Virus record (IMG/VR): IMGVR_UViG_3300006925_000107
Location: 1-27,862 of that record
Direction: 5' to 3' (one strand)
Length of the DNA: 27,862 nt
From: a virus
A program made the position numbers and the translations under genes. Below the pieces are notes generated by a model. That model was not told where the DNA came from. It saw only the letters and a list, made by a program, of their open reading frames with translations, and made no database searches. This document shows, in pieces, positions 3,096 through 25,236 of this stretch (position 1 is its first letter; every line of letters begins with the position of its first letter).

Positions 3096-3671
3096 TTATT
3101 TGCAAGATTGTAAGATAGCATTCGTAATAGATGCCCAGTTTCCTGAAAGAATGGCTTTCAAAAATCCTGCGCTAGCAACAGAACTTCCTTTAGAGAAACC
3201 ACCACTAATCATAACTGAACCTACAAAATTTATATTGCCTTCACTTATGATACACATTCTACTTGCAGAAACTCTGAACTCACCACCAGTAGATAATTGT
3301 AAATATCCATTACATTCTGCCATTATATTACCTTTACCTGCCTCACCATCACTGGCAGTAAAGTAAATATTTCTACCTTTCAGAAAAATATCTCCTGCTT
3401 CTGCGTTTAAAACAATATCTCCAGACTTAGCAACAATTGCTTTACTAGTTAAACCTTGCTTAGATGGATCTCCGTTAACACCAACTACTTCTCCACTAAA
3501 TCCTTGAATAACTTCTTTATAATTGCCGTTTTTTGCATGTGTAAGAGTATTTCCACCAGAAGTTATAGTTGTCAAATCGCGTTTATGATCAACACTATCC
3601 ACTTCAAGTGGTCCACAATGAATAAGTGCATGTGGATTTCTTGCTAATGTATAATCGGGTGCATTTGCCAT
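3096..3671 (-). CDS. Baseplate spike/needle-like beta-helix protein, 191 aa
   Basis: Residues about 85-155 show short beta repeats of the type seen in gp5 and VgrG spikes: SGDIVLNAEAGDIFLKGRN, then GNIMAECNGYLQLSTGG and EFRVSASRMCIISEGNINF. In T4 the equivalent beta-helix is the C-terminal part of gp5 and forms the membrane-piercing needle with gp5.4. Here it is a separate gene two positions from the gp5 OB-domain gene, which ends without a beta-helix. I infer that it supplies the central spike shaft. A late-type octamer at 3691-3698 lies just upstream, overlapping the stop of the 948-aa gene. No strong ribosome site precedes the ATG at 3671. An alternative role is a peripheral short-fibre part. 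Confidence 0.6.
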   Translation of the reverse strand: MANAPDYTLARNPHALIHCGPLEVDSVDHKRDLTTITSGGNTLTHAKNGNYKEVIQGFSGEVVGVNGDPSKQGLTSKAIVAKSGDIVLNAEAGDIFLKGRNIYFTASDGEAGKGNIMAECNGYLQLSTGGEFRVSASRMCIISEGNINFVGSVMISGGFSKGSSVASAGFLKAILSGNWASITNAILQSCK

Positions 3672-10375: not shown

Positions 10376-12517
10376 CTATACATCAATACCATAATTCACA
10401 TACGAATTCATAATATATGGATTACTAGAATCTGTTGATGAAATATTGATACTTGTCTGCGATCTTTCTGTTGATTCAGTCTCAATTGGTTCTGGAGATT
10501 GATTAGCTAAAGTTATTCCTGGTTGAGTATTATTAATGACACTTACCTGTGAAGTTCCTCCACCATTTCTTGAAGCACCCCTATAACCTCCAATATCGGG
10601 AGAAGGTTTAGGCACAACTACTATAGGTGGCACAGATGTTATTGGTGATTCTCCAGGTGGGTTATTTGAATCAAATTCAATTACCGGGAATTGAATTGGT
10701 CTACTTGGTCCAGATTTACGTTCTCCTCCATTACCATTACCACCTGGAGTATTCTGTGCCGCTTCTCGTGTTCTCTTTTCAAGTTCTTTTAACTTGTCTT
10801 TTTTTCTTTCGTTAAGTATTTTTATTATTTCATCATTAAATAATTTAATTGTACCTTCAAATTTTTCATTCACTTCTTCCTGAAGAATATTATTTTCATT
10901 CTGTTTTCTAATTGCAGTTGTAAAAGAATTCCACATTCTACCTGCATTATCATTAATATCTTTCAAAAGTGGTCGGAAAAGATTTGATGATGATGTACGA
11001 ATAACTTCTTCACCTGGTGCAAGAAGTGCTTTTACCGTATCTTTATTTCCAGATCCAGTTCCACTTACGGTTCCTTTAACACGTTTAAAAACTGAACCGC
11101 CTTTAGAATAACCTCGGACTTCTTTAGCATAATCTGGTAGATCAATTCCATCTGCCAGATTACTATATCCAAGTACCTTAAGGCGCTGTAAATTCTTTGT
11201 AACTTTGAATTCAGATAATGTCCTACCACCACCCTTTAAAATTTTATCTGTTAAATGTAAAGGTGATTGTTGAAAATCTAATTCTTTTTTGATTTCTGCA
11301 ATTAATCTCCCAGATTTTTCTTCTTTTTTTTCTTGTGAAGCATTTGCCCAATATTCTGCAAATCCTTTGTCTTGGGATTCTTCAATTCTATCAAACGTAT
11401 AGTCTATTGCAAACTGTCCAGAAAGATCAGCAACAACTCCAATACCCATCCCTGCCAAACCGACAGCAAGACTTTTTAAGTTTGCAGGATTTAAAAGATT
11501 TTTCATTATTCCAGGATTGATTCCAGGATTGGGATTAACCTTAGGTGTGATACCTTGTCCTGGTTTTGGTATAGATGGTCCCCTACCAGAAGTAGTCCCT
11601 GCTAATTGAGATTGAAAAGGTTTCCCAGTAGTAGGATTAATAATTGATCCATCACTTCCCGGTAATACCGGTTTTATAGGACGAGGAATAGATTTTGGTG
11701 GTTTTGGTTTTGGTACTGATGCTGGTGGTGCTGGTGCTGGTGGTGCTGGTGCTGGTGGTTTTGGTCCTTTACCAAGTATCCTTGCAGCAACTGCAACAAG
11801 TTTTGCTCCTATAGCATATAATAATGTTCCAAATCCAATAAAACCAACGATGGATTGTATTAACTTAATACCAACAAGAGTTACTAGTATTTCTTTCCAA
11901 TAAGTTTTTAAAAACGCAAATATCTCTACAATTTTTTCTCTATTTTTTTCATCTTTTAAAAATTCCCACAAATTATTGACGACAAAACCAACTCCAACTA
12001 GTGTGAGAAAATCTAAAATTTTATCAAAAATACCTTTAATAGGTTGCAGTGCTTTTTTACCAAACTCTGCTATTGGTTTTAATAAACCTTTTCCCTTTTC
12101 TACAAATTTTTCCTTTTCACCTAATTTTTTTGTTCTTATCTTTTTCTTTTCTGTAGCAAGTTTATCTTTTCTTTCTTCTATTCTTGCAGCAAAATCTAAT
12201 GCAAGTTGTTTTTGAATTTCTACAAGAATTGAATTAGTTTCTGCAAGTTCAGATCCTTTCGATTTTTCTGGTTTTAAAACTATTTTATCAACAATTTTTA
12301 AAGTATTCGTTGATATAACTGGTTTTTCAACAGTCTTTAAAGATTCTGCTGTGATAATTGAAATTCCAAGTCCTTTAACAAAGGACATTTTGGATGTTTT
12401 TAATTTTGGTCCTTTAACAACAGAATCAATTTTTTGACTAGAGGAATTCAATGGGGAAGAATTTTTCCCCATTTTTGGAAGTGATGGTGCTTTATAAATT
12501 TGAGATTGTATTGCCAC
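10376..12517 (-). CDS. Probable tape-measure protein (gp29 position), 713 aa
   Basis: The start is GTG at 12517, immediately after the gp51 stop. Residues 95-160 are a charged coiled coil. GIFDKILDFLTLVGVGFVVNN (162-182) and following hydrophobic helices run to about 248. A Pro/Ala run (250-285) follows. Residues about 469-506 contain GYSKGGSVFKRVKGTVSGTG and NKDTVKALLAPGEEVIR, the classic 'GGxV-G-GSGDTV-A-L-PGE-V' signature found in phage tape-measure proteins. Helices follow, then a Gly/Asn-rich end with SVINNTQPGI. Tape-measure genes normally follow a tail-assembly-chaperone pair, and here gp26/gp51 precede it, matching T4 order 26-51-27-28-29 loosely. T4 gp29 is 590 aa, so this is longer. 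Direct sequence identity to gp29 could not be judged. Confidence 0.7.
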   Translation of the reverse strand: MAIQSQIYKAPSLPKMGKNSSPLNSSSQKIDSVVKGPKLKTSKMSFVKGLGISIITAESLKTVEKPVISTNTLKIVDKIVLKPEKSKGSELAETNSILVEIQKQLALDFAARIEERKDKLATEKKKIRTKKLGEKEKFVEKGKGLLKPIAEFGKKALQPIKGIFDKILDFLTLVGVGFVVNNLWEFLKDEKNREKIVEIFAFLKTYWKEILVTLVGIKLIQSIVGFIGFGTLLYAIGAKLVAVAARILGKGPKPPAPAPPAPAPPASVPKPKPPKSIPRPIKPVLPGSDGSIINPTTGKPFQSQLAGTTSGRGPSIPKPGQGITPKVNPNPGINPGIMKNLLNPANLKSLAVGLAGMGIGVVADLSGQFAIDYTFDRIEESQDKGFAEYWANASQEKKEEKSGRLIAEIKKELDFQQSPLHLTDKILKGGGRTLSEFKVTKNLQRLKVLGYSNLADGIDLPDYAKEVRGYSKGGSVFKRVKGTVSGTGSGNKDTVKALLAPGEEVIRTSSSNLFRPLLKDINDNAGRMWNSFTTAIRKQNENNILQEEVNEKFEGTIKLFNDEIIKILNERKKDKLKELEKRTREAAQNTPGGNGNGGERKSGPSRPIQFPVIEFDSNNPPGESPITSVPPIVVVPKPSPDIGGYRGASRNGGGTSQVSVINNTQPGITLANQSPEPIETESTERSQTSINISSTDSSNPYIMNSYVNYGIDV

Positions 12518-22327: not shown

Positions 22328-22696
22328 TCACATGTAACCCATATTTTTTCTTCTCATACGATATAGAATCGGTGCTGGTGGATCGATCCAATCTTCTATT
22401 TTATTAAAATTGTTCTCATCGTAAAAATCTTGTTGAATATACCATAACTTCCAATGTTCATGTCCCTTCGATTGATTACATGAATGACAACAACATACAA
22501 TATTTCTTGTTACATCTTCTCCACCTTTACACTGTGGAACAACATGATCTAGTGTTAAATTTTCTTCCGAACCACAATAGGCACACTGATAATTCCAACT
22601 TTGTTTTATTTGGTTTCTCCACAATCGTTTAGCTTCTGATGAACTTGATGTGTATAGATTAAACAAGTATTCATCAGGCGATTGGAGAAGATCCAT
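22328..22696 (-). CDS. HNH homing endonuclease, 122 aa
   Basis: The HNH core is clear: WNYQCAYCGSEENLTLDHVV, then PQCKGGEDVTRNIVCCCHSC and NQSKG. CxxC and CxxC pairs bind structural zinc, and the His of LDHVV and the Asn residues form the active site. The C-terminal end (DFYDENNFNKIEDWID) is usual for the free-standing HNH enzymes of cyanophages. Such enzymes cut at specific sites and spread their own gene by recombination. I chose ATG 22696; a TTG at 22708 would add four residues. Neither start has a strong ribosome site. The gene has its own late-type octamer and is bracketed by 19-bp direct repeats, so it looks like an insertion between the DUF4278 gene and the small frame to its left. Confidence 0.9.
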   Translation of the reverse strand: MDLLQSPDEYLFNLYTSSSSEAKRLWRNQIKQSWNYQCAYCGSEENLTLDHVVPQCKGGEDVTRNIVCCCHSCNQSKGHEHWKLWYIQQDFYDENNFNKIEDWIDPPAPILYRMRRKNMGYM

Positions 22697-22716
22697 AAGT
22701 GTTCGCAACTTATGAG

Positions 22717-22733: not shown

Positions 22734-22763
22734 CAAAAAAAGAGAGGGTATGTAACCCTCTCT
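22734..22763 (-). terminator. Rho-independent terminator of the DUF4278 operon
   Basis: On the minus strand AGAGAGGG, a 7-nt loop and CCCTCTCT form a perfect 8-bp stem followed by seven T. Its 5' arm overlaps the end of the right copy of the 19-bp repeat. Confidence 0.9.
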
Positions 22764-24640: not shown

Positions 24641-24859
24641 TTACTTAATTTTCTTTATATTCAAAGAAAATTCGAAATAGATATTTACTTCTCGATTGAA
24701 AAAGCAAACTATCTTATTCAAAATTATATGAAATGGTTTTGGTTGCTTTTTTTTACCCTCGTTAAGAATGAATTCAATACCACGATTAAAGTGATCTGTA
24801 GACTTATTTATGCCTTCTTCAGACGATTTGATGTTTTTTGAGGAATCTGATTGTGTCAA
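24641..24859 (-). CDS. Small protein with TTG start overlapping the glutaredoxin gene, 72 aa
   Basis: The frame starts with TTG at 24859, 41 bp before the end of the glutaredoxin gene. A strong ribosome site, AGGAGG, stands 5 nt upstream, inside glutaredoxin codons, which decides for this start. The protein has a polar first half (TQSDSSKNIKSSEEGINKST) and an amphipathic, aromatic second half (FHIILNKIVCFFNREVNIYF) with a lysine end. It may bind a membrane or nucleic acid; no family is recognised. An unusual start plus a good ribosome site suggests that expression is deliberately coupled to glutaredoxin. Confidence 0.55.
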   Translation of the reverse strand: MTQSDSSKNIKSSEEGINKSTDHFNRGIEFILNEGKKKQPKPFHIILNKIVCFFNREVNIYFEFSLNIKKIK

Positions 24860-25055
24860 CGCATCCTCCTAAATTTTCTTGATCACATTGTACCTGGGGA
24901 AATGTAGATCCTTCTCCAAATTGAGAATAAAATTCTTTTTTGTTGAAGTCTTCATCTAAAGTATAAACTGTAAAGTCTCTACCTGTTAATTCTAACACTT
25001 GTTTGATTTTATAGCAATGGGGGCAATCACTTTTTGAATAAATTGAAAATTTCAT
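24819..25055 (-). CDS. Glutaredoxin, 78 aa
   Basis: The active-site motif CPHC (Cys11, Cys14) follows the first strand FSIYSKSD. TFPQV gives the cis-proline, and LGGCVDTI gives the GG glutathione-binding turn. The size is that of the short phage glutaredoxins (T4 nrdC is 87 aa). These reduce ribonucleotide reductase and so support dNTP synthesis, fitting the presence of thyX. Its only visible promoter is at 25198-25226, and a terminator at 25097-25119 stands between, so expression may need read-through. A gene with AGGAGG and TTG begins inside its 3' end. Confidence 0.9.
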   Translation of the reverse strand: MKFSIYSKSDCPHCYKIKQVLELTGRDFTVYTLDEDFNKKEFYSQFGEGSTFPQVQCDQENLGGCVDTIRFLKKHQIV

Positions 25056-25096: not shown

Positions 25097-25119
25097 AAGA
25101 AAAGGGAGGAAAACCTCCC
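25097..25119 (-). terminator. Rho-independent terminator before the glutaredoxin gene
   Basis: On the minus strand GGGAGG, loop TTTT, CCTCCC then TTTTCTTTT: a perfect 6-bp GC stem with a tetraloop and a T-rich tail. It lies about 75 nt after the start point expected for the promoter at 25198-25226 and 42 bp before the glutaredoxin ATG. Confidence 0.85.
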
Positions 25120-25191
25120 GAATCTTTCACCAACTACCTTTCTCACCACAGAAAGGATCTTTATTCCCAAAGATACAAGGATTATAAAGAT
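25097..25191 (-). ncRNA. Candidate small RNA or attenuator leader, about 95 nt
   Basis: Between a consensus promoter and a terminator, the minus strand has no ATG and three perfect hairpins in a row: ATCTTT/AAAGAT with a 6-nt loop (25174-25157), CCTTTCT/AGAAAGG with loop GTGGTG (25156-25137, 7 bp), and the terminator GGGAGG/CCTCCC. The first two stems are directly adjacent. The unit could be a discrete small RNA or a regulated leader whose terminator controls glutaredoxin and the genes beyond. It does not resemble Yfr1 (no ACTCCTCACAC) and I do not recognise a family. Confidence 0.55.
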
Positions 25192-25197
25192 ACGAAT

Positions 25198-25226
25198 ATT
25201 ATACTCTATAAAAAACTAAGTGTCAA
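25198..25226 (-). promoter_or_regulatory. Consensus sigma-70 promoter of the small-RNA/leader unit
   Basis: On the minus strand a perfect TTGACA (25226-25221), 17 bp and a perfect TATAAT (25203-25198). The start would be near 25191. The -35 is half of a 16-bp perfect palindrome. Confidence 0.9.
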
Positions 25227-25236
25227 CCGGTTGACA
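25221..25236. repeat. 16-bp perfect palindrome TGTCAACCGGTTGACA over the -35
   Basis: The two arms are exact inverted copies without a spacer. One arm is the -35 of the leftward promoter. The other places a TTGACA facing right, though only a poor -10 (TAGAGT) follows it. Such a palindrome could be a repressor site. Confidence 0.7.

Follow-up and report, generated by a model that had tools for sequence, protein, structure and literature searches.

The window analysed here is a stretch of 27,862 nt (IMGVR_UViG_3300006925_000107), and the RNA unit under study occupies its minus strand from 25236 to 25097. Tail-type genes lie upstream of the unit. Its neighbour downstream is nrdC (24819–25055, minus strand), which encodes a glutaredoxin of 78 aa (Pfam PF00462) and is the usual, not obligatory, gene to follow the RNA; a DUF2973-like gene (just under the Pfam cut-off) and a DUF6433 gene are also found downstream. 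A sequence-only reading of this DNA had placed a promoter and a terminator before the glutaredoxin gene and had proposed that the unit is a small RNA of the phage or else a switch, based on the terminator, that controls the glutaredoxin operon. All of these elements were found again, on the minus strand and in the same place.

The promoter (25198–25226, minus strand) is a perfect TTGACA-17-TATAAT match (12/12). Among 72 distinct homologues, 55 match at all 12 positions and 15 at 11, i.e., an 11- or 12-of-12 promoter is kept in 70/72 distinct cores. When the whole window was shuffled 300 times, the mean number of perfect promoters was 0.057, and none of the shuffles contained one with a terminator behind it; the real window has two perfect promoters, one of them with a terminator behind it. 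The sole other perfect TTGACA–TATAAT promoter of the window is located at 545 (minus strand). In a 213-kb relative (G016), there are only five such perfect promoters, of which, by inspection, one precedes the RNA and one a tRNA-like sequence. The distance from the end of the −10 box to the first base of the first helix (P1) is exactly 6 nt in 22/22 members tested. Given this fixed distance, the RNA should begin with helix P1, which puts its probable 5′ end at about 25191. The −35 box is overlapped by a perfect 16-bp palindrome, TGTCAACCGGTTGACA (25221–25236, minus strand), which is operator-like and occurs as a single exact copy in the window. The exact sequence TGTCAANNNNTTGACA is likewise found only once in the 240 kb of the isolate Synechococcus phage S-SRM01, at the corresponding promoter, and members in which the upstream gene reaches right up to the −35 box lack the palindrome. 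An upstream AACAAAG-TCTACTC block does not recur within the window. Both the palindrome and the twofold UGGUG motif described below had been overlooked in the sequence-only reading.

The predicted RNA has a folding energy of −32.4 kcal/mol, compared with a mean of −21.2 kcal/mol for shuffled sequences (z = −3.5), and none of 200 shuffles folded as low. Hairpin 1 (25157–25191, minus strand) has covarying pairs and had been described as a plain stem of 6 bp. It is instead composed of an 8-bp helix (P1, 25191–25184 with 25164–25157), an internal loop and a 4-bp helix (P1b, 25181–25178 with 25168–25165), closed by the conserved 9-nt loop UGUAUCUUU (25177–25169, minus strand), which is nearly invariant across the family as UGYRWCWUU. 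The second stem does have the 7 bp given earlier: hairpin 2 (25137–25156, minus strand) is formed by P2, in which four of the seven pairs show a double compensatory change, and its loop GUGGUG (25149–25144, minus strand) is nearly invariant and carries the first UGGUG motif (25148–25144). This loop motif is mostly retained where the second stem varies. A single-stranded linker of 17 nt (25120–25136, minus strand) contains the second UGGUG (25132–25128), and at least two copies of the motif, in the hairpin-2 loop and the linker, are present in 65/72 distinct cores. The unit is completed by the intrinsic terminator GGGAGGUUUUCCUCCC and its U-rich tail (25097–25119, minus strand; hairpin 25119–25104, tail 25103–25097), and the 3′ end of the RNA is thus probably near 25097. 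The terminator hairpin and the U tract are kept in nearly all homologues despite changing sequence. In agreement with the earlier description, ATG is absent from the stretch; GTG and TTG are present. Homologues differ by 1-nt indels, and the stretch is therefore not coding. A leader peptide (GUG-GUA-UAA in some members) was considered and rejected, as it is not kept across members.

A scan of IMG/VR for glutaredoxin returned 80 loci, a minority of which have the RNA upstream, and S-SRM01 also carries it. The covariance model, a 70-nt core built from 11 sequences, recovered the remaining relatives, including a divergent group with an 8-bp P1 on which it had not been trained. The collected loci amount to about 70 distinct cores from IMG/VR cyanophage contigs and S-SRM01; wider pattern searches yielded at least 119 RNA matches, and the family is thus larger than counted. 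Of the stem cells, 99.2% are paired in 22 sequences and 98.9% in 66 distinct sequences, against 41–64% in slid controls; the alignment was fitted to the structure of the covariance model, so that these pair counts lean towards that structure. Double compensatory changes were observed in 8/18 pairs, with 70 such cells in the 66 distinct sequences and 17 in shuffles. The covariance search of relatives proposed with the first description has thereby recovered homologues with compensatory stem changes, and the stems, whose lack of conservation in homologous phages would have spoken against an RNA, are conserved. Taken as a whole, the unit combines a promoter and a terminator of its own with compensatory stem changes and lacks a conserved reading frame; these are the marks of a phage small RNA.

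Among the matches listed, 97/119 lie directly before nrdC, and the genes upstream of the RNA differ although nrdC follows. Other copies occupy different positions. On four contigs (G328, G329, G332 and G337), nrdC is found elsewhere and the RNA units are about 4–35 kb away from it; three of them (G328, G332 and G337) have a reading frame that ends immediately ahead of nrdC. In the L314 group, the gene behind an intact promoter–RNA–terminator unit has a promoter to itself (TTGACACC...CTATAAT), and L344 (on G337) shows the same arrangement. G328 and G329 have two strong RNA copies each, one of the two without a consensus promoter. At three loci (L089, L095 and L338), an ORF of 213 aa separates the RNA terminator from nrdC. 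This ORF, which has no Pfam match (tested on L095), is inserted at the start of nrdC and took over the nrdC leader; in L089 and L095, nrdC stands directly behind it. The consensus promoter is lost in the L317 group and the terminator in the L301/L395 and L400 copies, so that not every copy is a functional gene. In L124–L128, L130 and L131, the 3′ arm of hairpin 2 and one of the UGGUG motifs are missing, owing to a deletion between the two GGTGGT repeats. In L301 (12554–12651, minus strand) and L395, the RNA extends from the promoter to the hairpin-2 loop and is then continued by Gly-rich coding sequence, apparently joined at GGTGGT. Upstream of nrdC in L064 and L066, a similar promoter is followed by diverged sequence that the model does not match, possibly a decayed relative of the RNA.

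The frequent position before nrdC, downstream of varied genes, is what a cis-acting leader would lead one to expect, in which the hairpins sense a metabolite, a protein or the stage of infection and gate the polymerase past the terminator into nrdC and the genes that follow. The terminator between promoter and gene, and the inserted ORFs in L089 and L095 that took over the nrdC leader, also fit such an arrangement. Against it stands the search for an antiterminator, in which the transcripts of 22 homologues were folded as if ended before the 3′ terminator arm: the 5′ arm pairs upstream with a chance of 0.04–0.92, its partners differ, and P1 and P2 usually stay intact. Furthermore, the conserved bases are found in the hairpin loops and the linker rather than in a junction, and units are also found in front of unrelated genes at a distance of 3–35 kb from nrdC, where some of those genes have promoters of their own. 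A terminating riboswitch or attenuator was rejected, given that no antiterminator exclusive with the terminator is common to the 22 homologues and that the RNA is not always the leader of one gene, with intact units before genes that have their own promoters. A cis-acting leader is accordingly quite unlikely, and the switch for the glutaredoxin operon suggested at the outset is not borne out. With no shared antiterminator, distant units, double copies and an intervening ORF, the unit behaves as a gene of its own. A decayed or mobile element, passing from one cyanophage locus to another and having no function as an RNA, would account for the ectopic and double copies, the shortened copies in L301/L395 and the repeat-mediated deletion in L124; the compensatory changes in the stems, the invariance of the loops and the rigid spacing of promoter and helix point instead to selection on the RNA and make such an element extremely improbable.

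Both roles could also be combined, the RNA being autonomous and its terminator hairpin serving in addition as a 5′ stabilizing hairpin of an nrdC mRNA, for which TGGTATAAT, an extended −10 box immediately ahead of the hairpin, would be the start signal. This box lies just before the terminator hairpin in many members, and TGNTATAAT directly precedes the hairpin in about half of the first 22 members. At several nrdC loci that lack the RNA (L009, L018, L059 and L065), a promoter is followed at once by a hairpin and a T-rich run near the start codon. On these two grounds, the terminator hairpin may have a second role at the 5′ end of an mRNA. Since the −10 box is missing in the window, L007, L039, L046 and the L101–L104 group, the combined arrangement is possible but somewhat unlikely. 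Of the readings considered, an autonomous small-RNA gene fits the unit best, ahead of a glutaredoxin switch; the unit is probably a conserved stand-alone small-RNA gene of T4-like cyanophages, which represents a new RNA family and would act in trans. The small-RNA alternative of the sequence-only reading is thus backed by stem covariation, by the fixed start relative to the first helix and by intact units away from nrdC before genes with their own promoters.

As for nrdC itself, the earlier statement that no other promoter for glutaredoxin is visible holds for the window, which shows neither a late-type element nor TGGTATAAT clearly, but not for nearly all relatives, which carry TATAAATTA between the terminator and nrdC. 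This sequence differs at a single position from TATAAATA, the phage late box; in S-SRM01, TATAAATA shows strong enrichment ahead of genes (25/269 starts vs 1 in control windows). The coding region of nrdC also contains a promoter-like sequence, which matches at 10/12 positions in the window (24989–24960, minus strand) and is perfect (TTGACA-18-TATAAT) in G016 at 189728 (minus strand) and in S-SRM01 at 11177 (plus strand); it may drive the genes behind nrdC.

For the autonomous small RNA, a mode of action can be outlined from its sequence features. Host RNA polymerase would start at the consensus sigma-70 promoter, and the use of such a promoter suggests that the RNA is made early in infection. 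The transcript would run from the first base of P1 through two hairpins, a single-stranded linker of 15–17 nt and the terminator hairpin, ending after about 92–105 nt, and it should be stable because its 5′ end is predicted to be buried in a helix. Action in trans might proceed through the exposed hairpin-1 loop and the two UGGUG copies, which could pair with RNAs that contain CACCA or capture a protein that reads UGGUG twice. The terminator would insulate the RNA from the downstream genes, with nrdC expressed mostly via its own late-type element or by read-through. Many mature tRNAs end in CACCA, the complement of UGGUG. It is very unlikely that the RNA is a decoy or guide whose two UGGUG motifs engage host tRNAs or a UGGUG-reading protein during infection, and we know of no precedent for a phage RNA mechanism of this kind. 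A target scan confined to phage start sites, in S-SRM01 and G016, revealed none above shuffled controls. The RNA occurs widely among contigs of environmental cyanophages, its anatomy is tight and can be tested, and S-SRM01, a phage in culture, has it as well, so that RNA-level takeover of cyanobacteria can be approached directly.

To our knowledge, few noncoding RNAs of cyanophages have been described. Among RNAs of other origin, decoys of the Csr/Rsm type likewise repeat a short motif in a hairpin loop and linker; their motif is GGA, whereas that of the new RNA is UGGUG. RsmZ aligned with L101 over the terminator at 14 bits (cut-off 44), which is chance level. PreS (LPR1) of phage lambda, a trans-acting RNA of ~88 nt that needs Hfq and targets host dnaN (PMC12197685), is a phage-encoded small RNA of similar length, whose sequence was compared with the new RNA only through Rfam. 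CfrI of cyanophage S-PM2 is an antisense RNA of about 225 nt at the 3′ end of psbA (PMC12197685). Like the new RNA, it is a noncoding RNA of a T4-like cyanophage; unlike CfrI, the new RNA is intergenic, about 92–105 nt long and antisense to no known gene, and the covariance model has no match in the record of S-PM2. Cyanophages of this kind also carry the structured RNAs wcaG, manA, glnA (glutamine) and PhotoRC (PMC9964418); the unit does not reach the threshold of any Rfam family. The reported cyanophage RNAs CfrI, PhotoRC, wcaG, manA, glnA and abiF (PMC9964418, PMC12197685) are different from the new RNA.

In Rfam 15, no family reached its gathering threshold over the unit in the window and its homologues, and permissive thresholds gave sub-threshold matches only. 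The best of these by E-value that bears on the core is nadA (NAD+ riboswitch, RF03013), with 20.9 bits against a threshold of 37.5 in L101 and no match in the window or S-SRM01; the outer helix aligns, while 15 nt replace 42 inner positions, and the candidate was rejected. The same applies to the PreQ1-I riboswitch (RF00522; 18.3 bits against 39), whose match lies across the promoter region and on the other strand. ARAGORN reported only a tRNA-Ile at 32–119 in the window, so that a tRNA or tmRNA was likewise discarded. In the data searched, the RNA is restricted to phages: the model found it in 0/10 genomes checked for a host origin and in 0/300 host-family genomes (strict filters, run without a positive control), and a pattern scan of GTDB gave no matches. 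Twelve other nrdC-bearing records of isolated cyanophages or single-cell viruses gave no strong model match, nor did S-SKS1 and S-T4. Weak matches occur in S-SSM7, S-CAM3 and S-SCSM2R; on inspection of those in S-SKS1 and in contigs G005, G010 and G018, the unit was not present. The RNA is unreported in the open-access literature searched, a subset beyond which a report may exist. Promoters, terminators and glutaredoxin go unmentioned in the S-SRM01 paper, and the unit is absent from the annotation of that phage, though its sequence occurs there. L101, which carries the new RNA, also has a glutamine riboswitch (RF01739) at 3330–3433 (minus strand), and in the window an HNH endonuclease gene (22328–22708, minus strand) has a strong terminator-like hairpin just upstream, at 22763–22741.
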